Origin: Thermoproteota archaeon
GTDB lineage: Archaea > Korarchaeota > Korarchaeia > Korarchaeales > Korarchaeaceae
Assembly: GCA_027491435.1 (NCBI GenBank)
Contig: JAOZFG010000037.1
Span: forward strand, 1 to 55,070
DNA length: 55,070 nucleotides
Direction of reading: 5' to 3'
Part shown: piece by piece, positions 1,579 to 22,435 of the stretch
How positions within the stretch are numbered: position 1 is the stretch's first letter
How the letters are laid out: every line of letters starts with the position of its first letter
Translations under genes and position numbers: made by a program
Notes under the pieces: model-generated
Told to the model about the DNA's origin: nothing
Seen by the model: only the letters and a program-made list of their open reading frames with translations
Databases searched by the model: none

Positions 1579-2730
1579 ATGAGCGGCAGGGTCAGGGAAC
1601 TCCTCAAGTCGCACGGGACCCCACCCAGGGAAGTTTACCTGGATAACGAGAACTCGGGATGGGTTCCCCCGGAAGTGGTCGAAGCCACGCTCCCCTACTT
1701 TAACGTTAAGGGGTATGGACATCCATCGATTACCAACAAGCCCGGATGGGAGGCCCTGGAGCTAATATTGGAGTTCAAGGAGCTGTTGAGCTCTGTGATA
1801 AATGGGGAGCCGGAGAACGTGCACATAACCCATAGCGGCACAGAGGCCAACAACTTAGCTATCCTGGGGGTGAAGAGGAGGGGTAAGGTCATAGTGTCTG
1901 ACGTGGAGCACTACAGCGTCCTCCTGCCTGCCCTAACCTTGGACGCCGTAAGGGCTCCTGTGGATGAGCAAGGATTCATTGACTTGGACGTGCTCTCCCA
2001 GCTTGTCGACTCGGAGACAGTGCTGGTAAGCGTTCAGGCGGTTAATCACGAGATAGGCACGATACAACCCGTGAAGGAGGTCTACGAAGTGGTGAAAGAT
2101 CGCAACCCCGATGCCTTGGTGCACGTGGACGCCTGTGATGCTTTGGGCAGGGTTGAACTCAACTCAGACTACGCTGACCTCATGACGTTCAGCTCCCACA
2201 AGGTGCTTGGCCCCAAGGGGGCGGGCGCCCTCTACACTAAGGTGAAGTTGGAGCCTCCTCTCAAAGGGGCTTTAAGCACAGAAACCCTCTGGCCAGGTGT
2301 TGAGAACGTTCCAGCCGTAGCCGGGTTTAAGAAGGCGTTGGAACTTTATCTAGAGGACGACTTAGAAGAACTGAGAAGGAAGAGGGATAAACTCATAAAG
2401 GGGCTCCTCTCCATCCCAGACACCCTGCTTAACGGTCCTAGAGATAGGAGGGCGCCGGACAACGTTAACGTGAGCTTTCTCAGGGTGGAGGGGGAGGCAA
2501 TAACTGTGGAGCTCAGCATGAGGGGCATCTACGTTTCCAGCGGAAGCGCCTGCACCAGCAGGCTATTAGAGCCAAGTCACGTGATGCTAGCTATAGGAAG
2601 GAGTTATGAGGAAGCCCATGGAAGTGTAATGTTCAAACTCACTAGATACTTAACCTGGGAAGACGTCGACTACGTGCTCGAGCAGGTTCCAGAGGCCATC
2701 GAGAGGCTCAGGAACATAAGTCCACTTTAA
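1579..2730 (+). CDS. iscS: Cysteine desulfurase (NifS/IscS/SufS family)
   Basis: A pyridoxal-phosphate enzyme of 383 residues that removes sulfur from cysteine and passes it as a persulfide to Fe-S assembly and tRNA thiolation. Visible marks are the GTEANN substrate/PLP segment (88-93), His111 in VEHYS, the PLP lysine in SSHKVLGPKG (Lys208) and the persulfide cysteine in SSGSACTS (Cys325) followed by the EPSHV motif. The length is normal for the family. The IscU-like scaffold gene starts 34 bases downstream and a TusA-like carrier follows, so the three form a sulfur-transfer operon. The upstream A/T-rich stretch without a Shine-Dalgarno motif suggests leaderless translation. The family is certain; the assignment to the Isc type is inferred from the neighbour. 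Confidence 0.93.
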   Translation: MSGRVRELLKSHGTPPREVYLDNENSGWVPPEVVEATLPYFNVKGYGHPSITNKPGWEALELILEFKELLSSVINGEPENVHITHSGTEANNLAILGVKRRGKVIVSDVEHYSVLLPALTLDAVRAPVDEQGFIDLDVLSQLVDSETVLVSVQAVNHEIGTIQPVKEVYEVVKDRNPDALVHVDACDALGRVELNSDYADLMTFSSHKVLGPKGAGALYTKVKLEPPLKGALSTETLWPGVENVPAVAGFKKALELYLEDDLEELRRKRDKLIKGLLSIPDTLLNGPRDRRAPDNVNVSFLRVEGEAITVELSMRGIYVSSGSACTSRLLEPSHVMLAIGRSYEEAHGSVMFKLTRYLTWEDVDYVLEQVPEAIERLRNISPL

Positions 2731-2764
2731 CAATAGTTAATTTAATATTGCGTTCCTACGTTAT

Positions 2765-3259
2765 ATGCTGATGAGCACCAGGGTTCCGCTTCCCTACACG
2801 CCCAAGGTCTTGGAGCTTTTTAGGAACCCCAGGAACTTGGGAAAGATGGAAAGTCCTGACGTCGTTTCCCAGGCAGGAAGTCCAGCTTGCGGGGACGTGA
2901 TCACCATTTACCTTAAGATTAGGTGCGGCATTGTAGTAGAAGCGAAATTCGAGAGCTACGGGTGCGCCGCCAACATAGCGGCTGCCAGCGCCCTCACTGA
3001 GATGATAAAGGGTAAGAAGGTGGAAGAGGCCTGGAGCGTTGAGTGGAAGGATGTGGCTGACGAGCTGGGCGGGCTACCGGCAATTAAGAGACACTGCAGC
3101 ATACTGGCCGTAGGAGCCTTAAGGAGAGCCATCAGGTCCTACTACAAAGATGAGAAGCCTGAATGGCTTCCCTCCGAGCTAACTTTAGCGGAGAGGCAGG
3201 CTTTAGAGGAGGAAGAGCTTATAGATAGGCTGTACGGTGGTAGGGTTGCCAGAACTTGA
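2765..3259 (+). CDS. iscU: IscU/SufU-type Fe-S cluster scaffold protein
   Basis: The 164-residue protein has the three conserved scaffold cysteines: Cys42 with Asp44 in SPACGD, Cys67 in SYGCAAN and Cys111 preceded by His110 in KRHCS. It would receive sulfur from the desulfurase encoded 34 bases upstream and assemble 2Fe-2S or 4Fe-4S clusters in the cytosol. An acidic helical tail of about 40 residues after the core is longer than in bacterial IscU. ATG codons at 2765 and 2771 are both possible starts. The third gene of the operon overlaps its 3' end. The family assignment is secure. Confidence 0.9.
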   Translation: MLMSTRVPLPYTPKVLELFRNPRNLGKMESPDVVSQAGSPACGDVITIYLKIRCGIVVEAKFESYGCAANIAAASALTEMIKGKKVEEAWSVEWKDVADELGGLPAIKRHCSILAVGALRRAIRSYYKDEKPEWLPSELTLAERQALEEEELIDRLYGGRVART

Positions 3260-3470
3260 ACTCGTCAGGAGGGCCAGGGGGTGCGTAGAGTCCCCCGTGG
3301 CGGCCCTGATAAGGGAGCTCAACTCCCTAGACGAGGGGGAGGAGTTAATCCTCAAAGTGGACCCATCTTATTACCCCGTGAAGGCCATCAAGATGCTAGT
3401 GGAGAAGAGGGGGTTCAAGTTCCAAGTGCTGGAAGAGGGGGAAGTTGTGAAGTGCTCGGTCACGAGGTGA
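3237..3470 (+). CDS. Divergent TusA-like sulfur carrier protein
   Basis: A 77-residue protein with the TusA layout: a conserved cysteine early (Cys16) before a helix (CVESPVAALIRELN), then strand, helix, strand (GEELILKVDP, PVKAIKMLVEKRG, VVKCSV). TusA normally has Cys-Pro-x-Pro; here it is Cys-Val-Glu-Ser-Pro, so the first proline is lost but the second is kept. The GTG start at 3237 lies 23 bases inside the iscU gene, so translation is coupled. The position after iscS and iscU supports a sulfur-relay role. The canonical TusA of this window is at 14952. The identification rests on pattern and context, not on a close match. Confidence 0.6.
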   Translation: MVGLPELELVRRARGCVESPVAALIRELNSLDEGEELILKVDPSYYPVKAIKMLVEKRGFKFQVLEEGEVVKCSVTR

Positions 3471-4122
3471 GCCATCTGTACAGCTCCCTCGCCAGGGATC
3501 GATCCTCCACTCCTTTTTTGACGGCGGGCACGATCAGGTCGGGCCTATCCGTTATGACTGCATCTACTCCCAGCGATTGGAGGTGAATGGCCTGATCTAC
3601 ATCGTTCACCGTCCAGACGAAGACGAGCCCTCCAGCCTTGTGGACCTCCTGAACGAGTTCCTCATCCACGTAGCTCAACTCCACAGAAAGCCCATCGGCG
3701 AGAGCTGCCCTCATCACAGAGGAGGGGCTGACCGGCCTCTCCTGTATGGAGGCGAGCGTGGGTACCTTGAATCCGCTCTCCTTCAGGCGCCTTATCACCG
3801 GGTGGAACTTAGAGCTCACCATTACCCCCTGACCCTTGCCCAGGAAGGCGTTGAAGAACTTCTCGTATCCCTTAGGAGTCTTTATGTCAATTACCACTGG
3901 AATGTGGTTGTTCATTATCTCGCTTATCATGCTATCAGCGCTGGAGGTGGGCTCCGTGAGGACCCTCCTAAGTATTGCCTCCTTCAGGGTAGCTGGCTTA
4001 ATAGAGCTCGAACCGTGTCCTACTCCGGAGGAGGTGAGATCAAGCTCGATGGCGTCTACTCCGTGCACTACGTAGTTCCTAAGCTTTATCACGTTGTTCG
4101 CCCTGTGGCCTATCACGAGCAT
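3460..4122 (-). CDS. Glycerophosphodiester phosphodiesterase family protein
   Basis: A 220-residue TIM-barrel enzyme that would hydrolyse glycerophosphodiesters to sn-glycerol phosphate and an alcohol. Visible marks are the N-terminal IGHRANN with catalytic His-Arg, the AIELDLT metal-binding Glu/Asp pair, a second acidic pair in VVIDIKT, and the C-terminal VFVWTVND and GVDAVITDRPD blocks typical of GDPD enzymes. The second catalytic histidine normally found shortly after the E-x-D motif may be the one in GVGHGSS. The gene is convergent with the TusA-like gene and overlaps its stop by 11 bases. Its start is 34 bases from the divergent ATPase gene, so the promoters overlap. Confidence 0.85.
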   Translation of the reverse strand: MLVIGHRANNVIKLRNYVVHGVDAIELDLTSSGVGHGSSSIKPATLKEAILRRVLTEPTSSADSMISEIMNNHIPVVIDIKTPKGYEKFFNAFLGKGQGVMVSSKFHPVIRRLKESGFKVPTLASIQERPVSPSSVMRAALADGLSVELSYVDEELVQEVHKAGGLVFVWTVNDVDQAIHLQSLGVDAVITDRPDLIVPAVKKGVEDRSLARELYRWLTS

Positions 4123-14951: not shown

Positions 14952-15194
14952 TTACCTGGCTGTAACCTTGATAAGGGCCCTAATCACGTCACCCTCCTCG
15001 GTCAGGCTTATTAGCTCGTTGCCGGTCCTCTTAACCCAGGCCTCAACGTCTGCCTTGAAGCCTGGATCCGTGGCTAGAACCTCTATTACATCCCCGTTTT
15101 TGGCCTTTCTGTAGGCCTTAATTAGGCTAGTAAGGGGTCCGGGGCAAGCTACGCCCCTGGCGTCAACGGTTATGGTGGGCTTAACCTCGGACAT
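14952..15194 (-). CDS. tusA: TusA sulfur carrier protein
   Basis: The 80-residue protein has the canonical TusA motif ACPGPLTSLIKAY with the active cysteine at about 18, followed by GDVIEVLATDPGFKADVEAWVKRTGNELIS and a final strand. TusA carries sulfane sulfur as a persulfide in the cytosol. A GGTGAT site precedes its ATG. It lies 12 bases after the DsrE-like gene and 115 bases before the SQR gene; the gap has an A/T-rich stretch that could be an extra promoter for SQR. Together with DsrE it probably takes sulfur formed by sulfide oxidation. The assignment is secure. Confidence 0.93.
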   Translation of the reverse strand: MSEVKPTITVDARGVACPGPLTSLIKAYRKAKNGDVIEVLATDPGFKADVEAWVKRTGNELISLTEEGDVIRALIKVTAR

Positions 15195-15206
15195 GATATC
15201 ACCCGT

Positions 15207-15614
15207 TCAAACGAATATCACTTCAAAGTCGGCCATCTCTGCTAAAAAGGTTGCGGCCCCTACCACTTTATCAACTATCGGGTCCACCTGATCCTCTGAG
15301 TAGCCCAAGGCTTCCATGGTCATGGAGCAGACCATTATCTTTACGTCTCCTAGCTCCTTGGCTTCCTTCAGCATGTCATACCAGGATTTGGCGCCCATCT
15401 TAGCCATTCCCTCGAACATCTTCTGTCCCCACTCCTTAAACTCCTCTGGAACCTTAGGTTCGGGCTTCTCCTTCATGAAGTAGGGAGTAGCAAAGCTCGT
15501 CACAAATATCCTGACGGGCATGTCGAAGTTGGCTGCTGTCTGGGCTAAGACCCCAGCTAGAACCAGGGTGTCGGCCCTCCCGGAGTAGAGGACTATGCCT
15601 AAACCCTTAGACAT
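15207..15614 (-). CDS. DsrE/DsrF-like sulfur-transfer family protein
   Basis: A 135-residue protein from the ATG at 15614, chosen because AGGTGATCTT directly precedes it. GLGIVLYSGRADTLVLAGVLAQTAANFDMPVRIFVTSFATPYFM is the Rossmann-like DsrE fold start, and IMVCSMTMEALGY holds the conserved Cys (about 104) of DsrE2/DsrE3-type sulfurtransferases. The C-terminus (DKVVGAATFLAEMADFEVIFV) is typical of the family. It is the first gene of the dsrE-tusA-SQR-DUF1641 operon. It would pass sulfur to or from TusA in the cytosol. Confidence 0.88.
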   Translation of the reverse strand: MSKGLGIVLYSGRADTLVLAGVLAQTAANFDMPVRIFVTSFATPYFMKEKPEPKVPEEFKEWGQKMFEGMAKMGAKSWYDMLKEAKELGDVKIMVCSMTMEALGYSEDQVDPIVDKVVGAATFLAEMADFEVIFV

Positions 15615-15717
15615 AAGATCACCTGTGTACTCATCTAACAAAAGGATTTTAACTTTACGATGTTAATTAATGGGGACTGGGAGCTTCCCTAGGCTAGAAA
15701 AGGTCGGAGCTCTCAGA

Positions 15718-17860: not shown

Positions 17861-19486
17861 ATGAGGGTAAAGTTACTCCTTGTCACGCTGTTGACAATCT
17901 CACTCCTCACGTTCAGCTCTTTGGCCCAGATAACGTTCGAGGTGACTCAGGAGAGGGTGATTCTTGAAATAGATAAGACGGGAGACGTTTACCTAGACTA
18001 CAACATAACCTTCAGGATACTATCGGGCGTCGTCTCCAAGTACGTGAGGGTTGGGATGCCCGTGGGAAGCTTCGAAGTCTTAGAGGTTAGGGAGGTCTAC
18101 CCAGATGGCAGAGTAGCTAATCCAAGCTTTAAGGAGGATAGGAACGAGGGCTACGCGGTGGTCATCACCCCCTCAACGCCTATAAGGGCTGGTGAGGAGA
18201 GGACCTACCTGGTCAGCGCCGTTATACACGATTTCATATATCCGGACGACCAGAACCCGGGAAATGTGGGGCTGATGTTCATCCCCACCTGGTTCGGCAG
18301 CAAGACTAGGAGGTTGGAGGTTTTCGTGATCTTCCCGCCCGGGGTTAAACCTGAACACGTTAGGAACGCCCCTGATTACGACAACAAGGGGTTCACTGAG
18401 GATGGGAGGCTCTACTACTATTGGGTGAGGGAGGGGCTACCGCCAAACTACAAGTTCAAGGTTGGGGTCTCCTTCCCCAGGGAGTACGTTGAGAGGGTGG
18501 CTCAACCTGTTCAACCAGGCTCCAACTTTCTGGGGGCCCTTCTCCTCCTAGCCATCGTGTTGGGTGTCTTTCTTACCATCTACTTGGCTTACAGGTACTT
18601 CAAGCAGAAGATCATCTACGAAGGACCTAAACTTATGGTGGAGAGCCTTGGGGTGAACCAGAACCTCAGCCCAGTTGAGGTAGCTTACTTGAAGAAGTTG
18701 GTAGGCAAAGACATCTCATACGGCAGGATAATAGCTGTGCTAATAGCCTCCCTCTCCAAGAAGGGCGTCTTAGAGGTGGAGAGCCTTGACCCCCTCAGGA
18801 TTAAGGTAAGGAAGGGCTATAGGGTGAGGCTGAAGTCCTTCGAGAAAAGGTTCCTAGAATGCATTGACAGGGAGATAGACCAGGACTGCCTTGTCTCCGT
18901 CATAAAAACCCTCCACAGGAGGGTGGAGTGGGCCCTGGAGGGATACTCAAGGGGGCTAACTCTGAACCACTACGAGGAAAAAGTTAAAAGGTTATGGGAG
19001 TCTATAGAGAAGGCCTCCCCCCATAAAAAGAGAGGACTTATTAGGGAGAACCTGGACTGGCTGCTCACAGATGAGAAATTTTACGAACGCTTGAGGAGAG
19101 CGCTCAGGGGAGGAATAGCCCTAGACAGGAGGGAGGGAGACGTCTGGGTCTGGGTGTGGACTCCTTACCCATCTTACCCTTACCCTAGCACGTCCCACCT
19201 CCCCTCCCCGGCCCCTCCTGCTGAAAGCCCTGAGATACCGGTGGTGACTGACATAGAGAAGGTGGCCGATTCTATAGCTAGGTCTGTCGAGGAGGTGTCT
19301 TCTCAGGTCGTCAGGAACGTTGAGGACTTCGCAGACAAGGTAGCTAGAGTGATAGTTCCCAGCAGGCCCAGGTCGAGGAGAAGGACCAGGAGAGCTCCCT
19401 CAGTAAGTTGTGCATGTGTTAGCTGCGCCTGTGCCTGTGCTTGCGTCAGCTGCGCCTGTGCTTGCGCTGGAGGTGGTCTGGGTTGA
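17861..19486 (+). CDS. DUF2207-like membrane protein ending in a nine-cysteine (Cys-Ala) tail
   Basis: 541 residues: signal peptide (1-22), extracytoplasmic beta domain of DUF2207 type (23-215), one membrane helix (222-246), a cytosolic helical domain (about 255-420), a Pro-rich linker (about 430-460) and a basic stretch (RPRSRRRTRRAP) before the tail. The last 30 residues hold nine cysteines at 517, 519, 522, 524, 526, 528, 531, 533 and 535, in the pattern SCACVSCACACACVSCACACA, then GGGLG. The tail would be on the cytosolic side. The stop overlaps the TTG start of a radical SAM gene. I infer that the tail is a substrate of that enzyme; the rest may present or respond to the modified end. 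No function is known to me. Confidence 0.75.
   Translation: MRVKLLLVTLLTISLLTFSSLAQITFEVTQERVILEIDKTGDVYLDYNITFRILSGVVSKYVRVGMPVGSFEVLEVREVYPDGRVANPSFKEDRNEGYAVVITPSTPIRAGEERTYLVSAVIHDFIYPDDQNPGNVGLMFIPTWFGSKTRRLEVFVIFPPGVKPEHVRNAPDYDNKGFTEDGRLYYYWVREGLPPNYKFKVGVSFPREYVERVAQPVQPGSNFLGALLLLAIVLGVFLTIYLAYRYFKQKIIYEGPKLMVESLGVNQNLSPVEVAYLKKLVGKDISYGRIIAVLIASLSKKGVLEVESLDPLRIKVRKGYRVRLKSFEKRFLECIDREIDQDCLVSVIKTLHRRVEWALEGYSRGLTLNHYEEKVKRLWESIEKASPHKKRGLIRENLDWLLTDEKFYERLRRALRGGIALDRREGDVWVWVWTPYPSYPYPSTSHLPSPAPPAESPEIPVVTDIEKVADSIARSVEEVSSQVVRNVEDFADKVARVIVPSRPRSRRRTRRAPSVSCACVSCACACACVSCACACAGGGLG
19409..19483 (+). other. Cysteine-rich tail, candidate modification substrate (core-peptide-like)
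   Basis: Residues 517-541 of the preceding gene: VSC and CAC units repeated three times, each alternating Cys with a small residue, closing in GGGLG. Small spacers between cysteines and a glycine-rich end are the features of radical-SAM-modified peptides such as sactipeptides and ranthipeptides. Alternatively the cysteines bind metal. Confidence 0.55.
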
Positions 19487-20802
19487 AGGATGGGAGAAAG
19501 AGGAAGAAGTTATCATACCAGTACAGGGGGCACAGGGTTCAGCTGATATACGGGCCCCAACTGGGAACCCTGGTCGTGGACGCCAGCAGGATCGCTTACC
19601 TCAACCTGGAAGCCATCTACTTCGCTAGAGCCCTTCTAGAGGGTTGGGATGAGAGGAAGCTACTAAAGGAGGTCAAGAGGACGTTCAGGGGGGTCAGCAA
19701 GGAGAGGGTGCTTAGGGACTTCGTAGAGGTTAAGGAGAAGCTGGAGAGGTTCATAACCGATTACGTGGACCCAGTCACAGACCTAGGGTTCTCCAGCACC
19801 CTGCCGAGGCCAGAACTGCTTACCGCACCCTTCAGAGTTGATTTGGCCCTGACATACAGGTGTAACAACGAGTGCGTCCACTGCTACTCCTTCTCTCCTA
19901 GGGAAAAGGAGGAGTTAAGCACTGAACAGTGGAAGTTTATCTTGAGAAAGCTTGACGACGTCGGCGTACCCCAGGTAACTTTTACAGGCGGGGAACCAAC
20001 CCTCAGGAAGGACTTAGTGGAGCTAGTGGCCGAGGCTCAGAGGCTGGGCATGGTCTCAGGTATAGTGACTAATGGAAGGCTCCTCAAGGACAAGAAGTTA
20101 GTGAATGACCTGGTTAAAGCGGGCCTGGACTACGCCCAGGTGACCTTAGAGTCAGCTGATCCCTCGATTCACGACTCCATCACCAGGGTTAAGGGAAGCT
20201 GGGAGGAGACTGTACAAGGAATAAAGAACCTGTTGGAGCATGACATATTCGTGGACGTTAACGCTACAGTCCTCACCTCCAACTACCGGGGGATTGATAA
20301 GCTAGTGGAGTTCGTTGCCTCCCTGGGGGTTGACGGGTTCTCCCTTAACAGGCTCATATATAGCGGTAGGGGTAGGTCTCCAGGCTTGGAACCACCCCTA
20401 GAAGAGGTTAGGGAAGTTGTCGAGTTGGCTAAGGATTTGGCGGAGGAGCACGAGCTCAAATTCACCTGGTACGGGGTAACCAGGTACTGTGAGCTTAATC
20501 CCCTGGACCTGGAGCTCGGCCCAAAGTTCTGCTCGGCCTGTAGCATCTCCTTAGCTATAGAACCCAACGGTGACGTCATCCCATGCCAAAGCCATTATAA
20601 AGTAGTTGGCAACATTTTAAGGGATCCCTGGGATAAGATCTGGTACAGCGATTACTGTAAGTGGTTAAGAGAGGGTGGTTACGCTGGCGAGGTGTGCAGG
20701 AGTTGTCCGGTCTTCAACATATGTAGAGGGGGCTGTCCCCTGGAAGCCGAGGTAAAGCCCTTCCCGACGGTGGTCGATTATGGGAGAATCAGAGGTTTAT
20801 GA
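19483..20802 (+). CDS. Radical SAM/SPASM enzyme with PqqD-like (RRE) N-terminal domain
   Basis: From the TTG at 19483 (GGAGGTGG lies upstream and the start overlaps the previous stop as TTGA) the protein has 439 residues. Residues about 15-92 (LVVDASRIAYLNLEAIYFARALLEGW...VSKERVLRDFVEVKEKL) look like the PqqD/RiPP-recognition winged helix that binds leader or substrate peptides. The radical SAM cluster is C127-x3-C131-x2-C134, with FTGGEPTL as the SAM motif. The C-terminal SPASM region (about 345-425) has cysteines in FCSACSI, DVIPCQSH and CRSCPVFNICRGGCPL for extra Fe-S clusters. It probably modifies the Cys tail of the protein encoded just upstream. Confidence 0.85.
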   Translation: MKDGRKRKKLSYQYRGHRVQLIYGPQLGTLVVDASRIAYLNLEAIYFARALLEGWDERKLLKEVKRTFRGVSKERVLRDFVEVKEKLERFITDYVDPVTDLGFSSTLPRPELLTAPFRVDLALTYRCNNECVHCYSFSPREKEELSTEQWKFILRKLDDVGVPQVTFTGGEPTLRKDLVELVAEAQRLGMVSGIVTNGRLLKDKKLVNDLVKAGLDYAQVTLESADPSIHDSITRVKGSWEETVQGIKNLLEHDIFVDVNATVLTSNYRGIDKLVEFVASLGVDGFSLNRLIYSGRGRSPGLEPPLEEVREVVELAKDLAEEHELKFTWYGVTRYCELNPLDLELGPKFCSACSISLAIEPNGDVIPCQSHYKVVGNILRDPWDKIWYSDYCKWLREGGYAGEVCRSCPVFNICRGGCPLEAEVKPFPTVVDYGRIRGL

Positions 20803-21562
20803 GGACTTCCACGATATCCCCGAGAATGACGCTTACGAGGAGGCCTCCAAGTTGATAAAGAACCATAAAGGGAAGGTAATAGCCTTCACCGGTTCAGGCA
20901 TATCCGCTGAGGCGGGAATACCAACCTTCAGGGGAAAGGACGGGCTCTGGAACAAGTACAAGCCAGAGGAGCTGGCCACCCCAGAGGCCTTCAGGAGGGA
21001 TCCCAGGAAGGTCTGGGAGTGGTACAAGTGGAGGATGAAGAAGATAGCGAAAGCTGAGCCCACCCTAGCTCATAAAGTGTTGGCTAAGTGGGAGGAGAGG
21101 GGCATTATCCTGGGTATCGTTACCCAGAACGTGGATGGCCTCCACCAGAGGGCGGGATCAAAGGAGGTGGTAGAACTTCACGGTTCAATATGGAGAGTTA
21201 GGTGCACCAGGTGTGGCAAGGAGTACAACCTGGGCTTCGGAAACGTTCCGGAGGAAGATCTGCCCAAGTGCAAGGAGTGCGGAGGGCTTCTTAGACCTGC
21301 GGTGGTCTGGTTTCATGAGCCCCTCCCCGCCAGAAATTGGATGATGGCTGAAAGCCTGTTCAACGAAGCTGAAGTTATCCTGGTAGTTGGGACCAGCGGC
21401 CTAGTTTACCCCGCCGCTTCGCTTCCAGTTAACGCTGCGGTGCAAGGCAAGGCACTGATAGAGATAAACCCAGAAGACACCCCTCTGACCAGCCTTTCCA
21501 GGGTCAAGATAAAGGCTAAGGCCAGTGAGGCCTTCAAGAAGCTGGAGGAAATGGTGAGCTGA
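20780..21562 (+). CDS. Sir2-family NAD-dependent protein deacylase
   Basis: 260 residues with the sirtuin marks: FTGSGISAEAGIPTFRG (NAD loop, 36-52), TQNVDGLHQRAG (115-126), catalytic His134 in ELHGS, four zinc cysteines 142, 145, 164 and 167, and VVGTSGLVYPAASLP. It removes acyl groups from lysines, forming O-acyl-ADP-ribose; in Sulfolobus the Sir2 protein acts on the chromatin protein Alba. The start overlaps the radical SAM gene by 23 bases and the stop abuts the GNAT gene, so the three are one transcription unit. The first 20 residues are extra relative to short archaeal Sir2. The assignment is secure; the target is unknown. Confidence 0.94.
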   Translation: MGESEVYEDFHDIPENDAYEEASKLIKNHKGKVIAFTGSGISAEAGIPTFRGKDGLWNKYKPEELATPEAFRRDPRKVWEWYKWRMKKIAKAEPTLAHKVLAKWEERGIILGIVTQNVDGLHQRAGSKEVVELHGSIWRVRCTRCGKEYNLGFGNVPEEDLPKCKECGGLLRPAVVWFHEPLPARNWMMAESLFNEAEVILVVGTSGLVYPAASLPVNAAVQGKALIEINPEDTPLTSLSRVKIKAKASEAFKKLEEMVS

Positions 21563-22435
21563 ATGGAAATAGTTAGGCTGACCTCCGAGTATTACGAGGA
21601 GGTCGTGGGCCTCCACTGCCCCAAGTGGAGGGAACTTTCCCTGGAGGATAGGCTCACGTCCTGCGGCTACTGGGGAGACCCGGGGGTTTTCTCCTGGTAC
21701 TTGGACTCCCTGATCAGGGCTGGGGGACAGGCTCTAGTAGCTTTGGAGGACGGCAAGGTGCTGGGCGAGGCCGAACTCGTTCCGGAGAGGTTCTCAACTC
21801 CAGTGGGAACTCATACCTACCTGCAGATGGTTTGGGTGAGGAAGGAGGCGAGGAAAAAGGGGGTTGGAAGGGCCCTGGTGAAGGAGTGCTCCCAACTGAG
21901 CAGGAAGATGAGGATATTCAACCTGGACACGATACCCAGGGATGAAGCCATACCCTTCTTCGAGAGGCTCGGTTTCAAGGAGGTGGATACCCAGATACTA
22001 ATGGAGGCCGAAACGAGACCAGCTCCTGAGGAGTTGAGGATTGAAGACGCTGACAGAGAGGAGTTCCCGGTTAGCGCCTTAATGGTAGCTGGTCAGACGA
22101 GGCCCAGCGCTCTCCTCTGGGAACTACTCTGGGAGAGGGAGAAGGTTGGCCTGCCAAGCCCCAGGGTGATAAAGGTAAGAGTAGGCATGTGGCAGTTCGT
22201 CATAGCCCTGACACAACCATTTCCTAAAGATGATTTCCTTTATGCCCTGGTCTGGGCGCCTCACAGGGCTGGCTTGGGCCAGATTTTCGATTCAATGGAG
22301 GCGGCGATATCTATAGCTTATGAAATGGGGTACGAAAGGGTGAGGACTCAGACCTGGTGCAGGTACAGGGCGGCCTTCGAGGGGGCTGGCTTCACCCCGA
22401 TGAAACGTTTCAAGTGGATGAGGAAAAGGCTATGA
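21563..22435 (+). CDS. GNAT-family acetyltransferase, two-domain
   Basis: 290 residues. The N-terminal half is a complete GNAT domain with QMVWVRKEARKKGVGRALVKECS as the acetyl-CoA loop (about 90-112) and IPRDEAIPFFERLGFKEVD as motif B. The C-terminal half (about 150-290) looks like a second, degenerate GNAT repeat ending AISIAYEMGYERVRTQTWCRYRAAFEGAGF. The ATG follows the Sir2 stop with no gap, GGTGAG lying just before. It transfers acetyl groups to an unknown acceptor; coupling with Sir2 suggests the two may act on the same lysines. A metabolite-acetylating role is equally possible. Confidence 0.82.
   Translation: MEIVRLTSEYYEEVVGLHCPKWRELSLEDRLTSCGYWGDPGVFSWYLDSLIRAGGQALVALEDGKVLGEAELVPERFSTPVGTHTYLQMVWVRKEARKKGVGRALVKECSQLSRKMRIFNLDTIPRDEAIPFFERLGFKEVDTQILMEAETRPAPEELRIEDADREEFPVSALMVAGQTRPSALLWELLWEREKVGLPSPRVIKVRVGMWQFVIALTQPFPKDDFLYALVWAPHRAGLGQIFDSMEAAISIAYEMGYERVRTQTWCRYRAAFEGAGFTPMKRFKWMRKRL

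Follow-up and report, generated by a model that had tools for sequence, protein, structure and literature searches.

The subject of this analysis is a pair of overlapping genes in a 55,070-nucleotide stretch of DNA, referred to below as the window, which comprises positions 1 to 55,070 of contig JAOZFG010000037.1 (assembly GCA_027491435.1) from a Thermoproteota archaeon of the Korarchaeaceae. The first gene encodes a membrane protein that ends in a tail of Cys-Ala repeats. The second encodes a radical S-adenosylmethionine (rSAM) enzyme with a SPASM domain and an assigned recognition element (RRE) of the kind found in enzymes for ribosomally synthesized and post-translationally modified peptides (RiPPs). 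The features of the two genes are as follows.

17861..19486, + strand: gene for the Cys-Ala-tailed membrane protein, 541 aa (open reading frame; homologues aligned)
17933..18478, + strand: extracytoplasmic beta-sandwich domain, residues 25-206 (strands in the model)
18521..18604, + strand: single transmembrane helix, residues 221-248 (model, hydropathy and charge)
18671..19102, + strand: cytosolic helical or winged-helix-like domain, residues 271-414 (model, alignment)
19253..19360, + strand: amphipathic pre-tail helix, residues 465-500 (helix 465-498 in the model)
19409..19486, + strand: Cys-Ala repeat tail CACVSCACACACVSCACACAGGGLG and stop codon, the proposed substrate
19483..19486, + strand: TTGA overlap of the tail gene stop (TGA, 19484-19486) with the rSAM start
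19483..20802, + strand: RRE, radical SAM and SPASM enzyme, 439 aa (Radical_SAM 96 bits; SPASM, PF13186, 40.8 bits)
19504..19758, + strand: RRE (PqqD-like) domain, residues 8-92, beta-beta-beta-beta-alpha-alpha-alpha (model; PF05402 in orthologues)
19861..19884, + strand: CNNECVHC, the rSAM [4Fe-4S] motif (C127, C131, C134)
20530..20736, + strand: SPASM domain, C350..G..C368 and CRSCPVFNICRGGC (C405, C408, C414, C418)

The membrane protein consists, in order, of a signal peptide, a DUF2207-like beta ectodomain, one transmembrane helix, a cytosolic domain and the tail. In its structural model (mean predicted local distance difference test score, pLDDT, 79.8), the beta-sandwich domain resembles the N-terminal beta domain of the M1 aminopeptidases and of the oligosaccharyltransferase subunit ribophorin (E to 1.8e-10). 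The cytosolic domain is absent or substituted in bacterial homologues, such as those of the Clostridia. It is separated by a disordered linker from helix 465-498, and the tail is likewise disordered in the model; the cytosolic linker is rich in Gly and Arg. Because the net charge after the transmembrane helix is positive, the C-terminus is predicted to be cytosolic, as a preliminary description of the locus had held, and for nearly all homologues hydropathy and charge, a crude method, likewise predict a cytosolic tail. The label 'DUF2207-like', which comes from the same description, is sound as a statement of relationship but not as a family assignment, since DUF2207_C reaches 17.5 bits on the window protein and the Pfam cut-off is 33. 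No match to TIGR04222 was obtained for this protein in the NCBIfam search, and none of ten diverse tail proteins searched against Pfam and NCBIfam matched DUF2207, TIGR04222 or any other family above cut-off. The pre-tail helix may serve as the recognition, or 'leader', element for the RRE. Its identity between phyla is just 26%; by eye, a like pattern precedes both the Cys-Ala tails and the Ala-Cys-His-Ser (ACHS) tails of a sister system considered below.

The open reading frame ends with SCACVSCACACACVSCACACAGGGLG / VSCACVSCACACACVSCACACAGGGLG, which agrees with the earlier account of nine Cys within the last 25 residues, a terminal GGGLG and a stop that overlaps the TTG of the rSAM gene. 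Several lines of evidence indicate that this tail is under strong constraint. Within the window's genus, where the tail pattern was not used as a search key, the last 20 codons carry 1,099 synonymous and 40 replacement differences, compared with 13,847 and 19,245 for the codons of the body. Since the codons are free to vary while the residues are fixed, and since the pattern occurs only once in the window's 1.64-Mb genome, the tail is not a product of chance. Between phyla, the identity of the tail is 81%, compared with 30% for the ectodomain, 19% for the transmembrane segment and 32% for the cytosolic domain. In an alignment of 30 proteins, 12 of the 13 invariant columns fall in the tail, although some of this invariance follows from the use of the tail pattern as the search key. 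Similarly, Ala follows Cys at 234 of 255 positions, about 110 of which are set by the search pattern. The possibility that the tail is portable between unrelated scaffolds was rejected, because the tail proteins tested are all homologous in the body (E<=1e-19), although some of them had helped to build the profile used. The Clostridial tails (loci such as L051 and L086) run beyond GGGR into a conserved AGCSxKDFYxTNLKL segment, possibly a follower or recognition element.

The enzyme gene most likely starts at the TTG at 19483. Its reading frame is open from 19441, and homology points to the TTG at 19483-19485 as the start. The 15 genus members that were read share this arrangement; in each, a start-like codon overlaps or adjoins the stop of the tail gene at the equivalent site. 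The model of the enzyme (pLDDT 90.3) comprises a beta4-alpha3 N-terminal domain, an rSAM barrel and a SPASM end, and the Radical_SAM and SPASM scores listed above bear out its earlier identification as a radical SAM/SPASM enzyme with a Cys-rich SPASM end. The Cys of the CNNECVHC motif are conserved without exception, both in an alignment of 36 enzymes and in the 43 paired or sister enzymes examined. Both groups of SPASM auxiliary-cluster Cys, Cx12Gx4C and CX2CX5CX3C, are found in the window enzyme, and the SPASM Cys are complete in Archaea and Chloroflexota. The best PDB profile match is SkfB (E 4.6e-38, positions 26-410, including the RRE region), followed by PqqE, SuiB and CteB. SkfB is also the top Foldseek match of the model (E 2.1e-19, over 400 columns), and anSME is among the structural matches. 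However, the enzyme falls under the cut-off of every NCBIfam maturase equivalog (SkfB, PqqE, ACGX and others), the best score being 146 bits against a cut-off of 381.

The PqqD-like N-terminus that had been proposed for the enzyme stands on the orthologue scores, the model and the SkfB match, but not on the window sequence alone, which was unmatched. PF05402 (PqqD) scores above its curated cut-off, at 23.6-31.6 bits, at the N-termini of orthologues from G026, G027 and the genomes of loci L037, L078, L100 and L130, and it does so in the sister clade as well. The RRE of the window enzyme is thus assigned from orthologue matches and structure.

The tail and the enzyme are closely linked across genomes. 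When 84,980 species genomes were scanned with the pattern TGYGCNTGYGCNTGYGCNGGNGG, without use of the enzyme, at least 118 stretches matched. Among the matches listed, the reading frames distinguish at least 90 true tails (86 from the linkage set together with L033, L049, L134 and L147) from 29 chance pattern matches. Twelve tails at which the retrieved DNA ends were left out of the linkage count, leaving 78 assessable loci. A gene for this rSAM enzyme adjoins the tail at 74 of these 78 and at none of the 29 chance matches, again among the matches listed, so the expectation that such tails elsewhere would adjoin an rSAM gene with an RRE was borne out. The enzyme gene lies downstream of the tail gene in Archaea and most Chloroflexota and upstream in Clostridia, with adjacency kept. 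In 16 genomes that were searched because the rSAM gene was unlinked or could not be assessed, 14 contained a strong enzyme homologue (E<=1.5e-45). The search suggested at the outset had been framed for Archaea, where the system does occur, but its range is much wider and includes Bacteria. The hosts of the tail include Anaerolineae and other Chloroflexota, Lachnospiraceae, Oscillospiraceae and other Bacillota, Zixibacteria, Aminicenantes, Pirellulales and others, and among Archaea the Heimdall/Hodarchaeota (Asgard), Sigynarchaeota, Bathyarchaeia, Methanomassiliicoccales and Methanocella. The bacterial hosts are presumably anaerobes. Within the window's genus, every near-complete genome carries the pair. 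At the level of the phylum, 21 of the 22 tail genomes have an orthologous enzyme and six genomes have neither (Fisher p ~1e-4); the exceptions are G025, a fragmented assembly with a tail and no clear orthologue, and G004, where the enzyme lies at a contig end. The tail protein and its rSAM enzyme make up a discrete and widespread system of Archaea and Bacteria.

The co-variation of tail and enzyme by type is the strongest indication that the enzyme acts on the tail. This was analyzed in 120 genomes of one bacterial class (that of locus L034), with clade-1 enzymes defined by E<=1e-100. Clade-2 enzymes (E 1e-61 to 1e-78) adjoin a DUF2207 protein that ends in ACHS repeats and form a separate clade with full support in the tree. 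The Cys-Ala tail and clade 1 occur together in 15 genomes, with two genomes carrying the enzyme only, in one case at a contig end, and none the tail only (p=3e-17). Sixteen of the 120 genomes contain the ACHS pattern, and 15 of these have a clade-2 enzyme; one genome has this tail alone and another the clade-2 enzyme alone (p=5e-17). Both p-values ignore shared ancestry. No genome mixes tail type and enzyme clade. The sister ACHS-tailed protein passes the Pfam DUF2207 cut-off (31.0 versus 24.4) and reaches 38.3 bits against TIGR04222, for which the cut-off is 43.

In the sister system, the second tail type is encoded in an operon of its own. DUF2207 proteins with a nearly identical ACHS tail of ~50 residues are encoded at L192:5093-6808(-), L193:2310-4058(+), L194:1886-3787(+) and L195:1-645(+), and are followed by the sister RRE-rSAM enzyme, a coiled-coil protein of ~390 aa and a membrane zinc-ribbon protein. 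The sister enzyme is also present in two relatives of the window that have no Cys-Ala tail (G017 and G021). In G021 its gene (2372-3784(-)) adjoins one for a transmembrane protein of CPTGAK-like repeats (L197:3857-4786(-)), possibly a third substrate type, with a truncated DUF2207-like gene nearby.

Other genes recur around the pair. A membrane zinc-ribbon protein ending in EEPKW or EAPKW is encoded upstream of the tail gene in 13 loci, and a class I methyltransferase downstream in 19 (for instance L034:5292-6041, L116:3265-4017 and L187:7055-7777). All tails in the methyltransferase-bearing loci end in GGGR, and in the Sigynarchaeota genome G394 the methyltransferase stays with the enzyme while the tail gene lies elsewhere. 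As a core component the methyltransferase was rejected for the window's lineage, where just generic methyltransferases were found. In Chloroflexota, the enzyme is followed by an additional rSAM-fold protein with an RRE (L034:4123-5313, L074:4275-5447 and equivalents). A second radical reaction by this protein was rejected because CxxxCxxC and the SPASM Cys are lost; it is likely to be a non-catalytic partner. The neighbour clusters of the loci contain no conserved protease or exporter, which indicates that the tail is probably retained on the protein. Nor was any MNIO family seen among them. Downstream of the pair in the window lies one further gene, which is not part of the core.

20780..21562, + strand: SIR2-family gene, overlapping the rSAM gene

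It is directly downstream in most members of the genus, an adjacency not seen outside the genus, and is followed by a GNAT-like gene (window 20780-22435 for the two). A TusA-like and DsrE-like pair of sulfur-relay genes, named by eye, lies at 14952-15641 (-), a few genes from the tail gene.

Taken together, these observations are best explained if the two genes encode an enzyme and its substrate and the tail is modified in place and stays on the membrane protein, a reading to which we assign a probability of about 0.75. That the tail is the enzyme's substrate, whatever the reaction, is very probable. The preliminary description had already placed the substrate at the end of a large anchored protein and likened the modification to that of RiPPs, and the linkage, the RRE, the topology and the match of clade to tail type all support this. 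Following insertion of the membrane protein, the beta domain would lie outside, and the Gly/Arg-rich linker and the Cys-Ala tail would be cytosolic. The RRE domain would dock on the membrane protein, most likely at the amphipathic pre-tail helix, and the rSAM/SPASM core would then alter the repeated Cys-Ala units in place. Among possible reactions, the foremost candidate is oxidative thioether formation from the Cys sulfur to a neighbouring residue, with a loss of 2 Da per link. An auxiliary Fe-S cluster would hold the substrate Cys during this reaction, in the manner proposed for SkfB and CteB. Thioether chemistry in itself is put forward only tentatively, at somewhat under even odds. The product would remain on the membrane protein, and the modified tail would probably act in anaerobes as a rigid terminus for redox chemistry or metal handling.

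Some observations weigh against this reading. The N-terminus of the window enzyme does not reach E=1 against PF05402, and Clostridial enzymes mostly do not have the Cys of the second auxiliary cluster (the CX2CX5CX3C group). The spacing of Cys-X-Cys is tighter than in the sactipeptides known to us. A tail without an rSAM neighbour, the case that had been expected to speak against the pairing, occurs in a few instances: the tail is unlinked to the enzyme or lacks it at L124, L126, L137 and L139, in G025 and in the genome of L144, and G025 and the genomes of L126 and L144 have no clear orthologue. The two genes lie 30 kb apart in G026 and 4.4 kb apart in G027. Conversely, G435 has the enzyme and the methyltransferase with no tail alongside, and in G436 the enzyme lies at a contig end.

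Of the other explanations, two are comparably placed, and each is unlikely. In the first, the tail is a metal-thiolate device for Fe-S, Zn or Cu with unmodified Cys, and the rSAM enzyme alters a few residues or aids the loading or making of a cofactor. The dense CxC motifs resemble those of metallothioneins, the sister ACHS tail is rich in both Cys and His, and the zinc-ribbon protein accompanies the tail gene in 13 loci. Plain metal binding, however, does not need the Ala that follows nearly every Cys (234 of 255, partly set by the search pattern), and RRE-bearing rSAM/SPASM enzymes are modifiers of peptides. In the second, the enzyme epimerizes or otherwise changes every second residue, for example by converting Cys to formylglycine, and leaves an alternating D/L strand or beta-helix without cross-links. 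The rSAM epimerases such as PoyD generate a two-residue pattern in their products, with which the strict two-residue period of the tail is consistent, and anSME, a Cys-oxidizing SPASM enzyme, is among the structural matches. In contrast, the closest profile and fold matches, SkfB and SuiB, are thioether or carbon-link maturases, and the repeat of the sister ACHS tail is four residues long. Considerably less probable is a conventional RiPP, in which the membrane protein would be the precursor and the tail the core peptide released from it. The Cys-rich C-terminal core, the RRE enzyme and the methyltransferase of 19 loci would be in keeping with this, but the loci have no conserved protease or exporter, the tail is on the cytosolic side of the membrane, the large conserved ectodomain is retained, and conservation from Archaea to Bacteria is unlike that of typical antimicrobial RiPPs. 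An ordinary operon in which the rSAM enzyme has an unrelated metabolic substrate is very improbable, since the unlinked genes of G026 and G027 and the few genomes with a tail and no enzyme are set against a linkage that holds across many phyla and in both gene orders, and against the match of clade to tail in 120 genomes.

The proposed enzyme-substrate pair shares features with several known systems. It resembles the sactipeptide and ranthipeptide maturases SkfB, SuiB and CteB in the order of RRE, rSAM and SPASM domains and in the Cys-rich partner. In those systems, however, the substrate is a small free precursor, while the candidate substrate here is the C-terminus of a 541-aa membrane protein. 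A small precursor with a leader and a core, the mark of sactipeptides and ranthipeptides, was not found; in further contrast to them, the system has no dedicated exporter or protease and is conserved between domains of life. ACGX enzymes act on a peptide. The likeness to the ACGX system (NCBIfam TIGR04340) lies in an rSAM/SPASM enzyme named for an Ala-Cys-containing repeat; the window and sister enzymes match this family weakly (88 and 100 bits versus a cut-off of 400), and no paper on it was found in the open-licence literature. DUF2207 proteins (PF09972/PF20990) have the same scaffold, and an rSAM partner for them was not found in that literature. Asp-Cys repeat rSAM pathways place a Cys dipeptide repeat beside an rSAM/SPASM gene, but they involve small peptides of unknown chemistry, and neither a Cys-Ala tail nor a membrane protein appears in the main text of that study (Kostenko et al., 2022, PMC9062424).

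The nearest published idea concerns the TIGR04222 membrane proteins, which have large extracytoplasmic domains and Cys-rich, low-complexity C-termini and were proposed as RiPP-type substrates together with MNIO enzymes (Antoine et al., 2025, PMC12452194). Those proteins are found mostly in Actinomycetota, their Cys region is predicted to be periplasmic and the link to the enzyme is loose (PMC12452194). In contrast, the enzyme here is an rSAM protein, the tail is cytosolic, the link is tight and the hosts are both archaea and bacteria; the term 'rSAM' is absent from the text of that paper. In the open-licence literature, no paper was found that describes the tail-rSAM pair or membrane-anchored rSAM substrates of this kind, and no family in Pfam or NCBIfam covers the pair. 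The broader proposal is of an unrecorded maturation in Archaea and Bacteria, in which dedicated RRE-rSAM-SPASM enzymes covalently modify the Cys-Ala and ACHS tails of DUF2207-like membrane proteins. The modified tails would be cytosolic, would stay anchored for good and would have a housekeeping role with metals or in redox reactions, as an rSAM counterpart of the TIGR04222-MNIO pairs. This proposal is judged, by a narrow balance, more likely than not.

To our knowledge, research on RRE-bearing radical SAM/SPASM enzymes has dealt almost solely with their part in making small peptides. In this system, what appears to be the substrate is the terminus of a structural membrane protein, and it is probably never released. 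This, together with a sequence kept almost letter for letter between Archaea and gut Clostridia, suggests that the tail has a cellular function and is not an antibiotic. Cys-Ala and Cys-His-Ser-Ala repeats would be the targets of a new rSAM reaction, and the system would provide a first mechanistic handle on the DUF2207-like proteins. The match between enzyme clade and tail type makes the question of the substrate testable, including in the cultured hosts Ornatilinea apprima and Gemmiger formicilis. Overall, the widespread pairing, read from sequences, points to an unrecorded chemical modification of a protein end.

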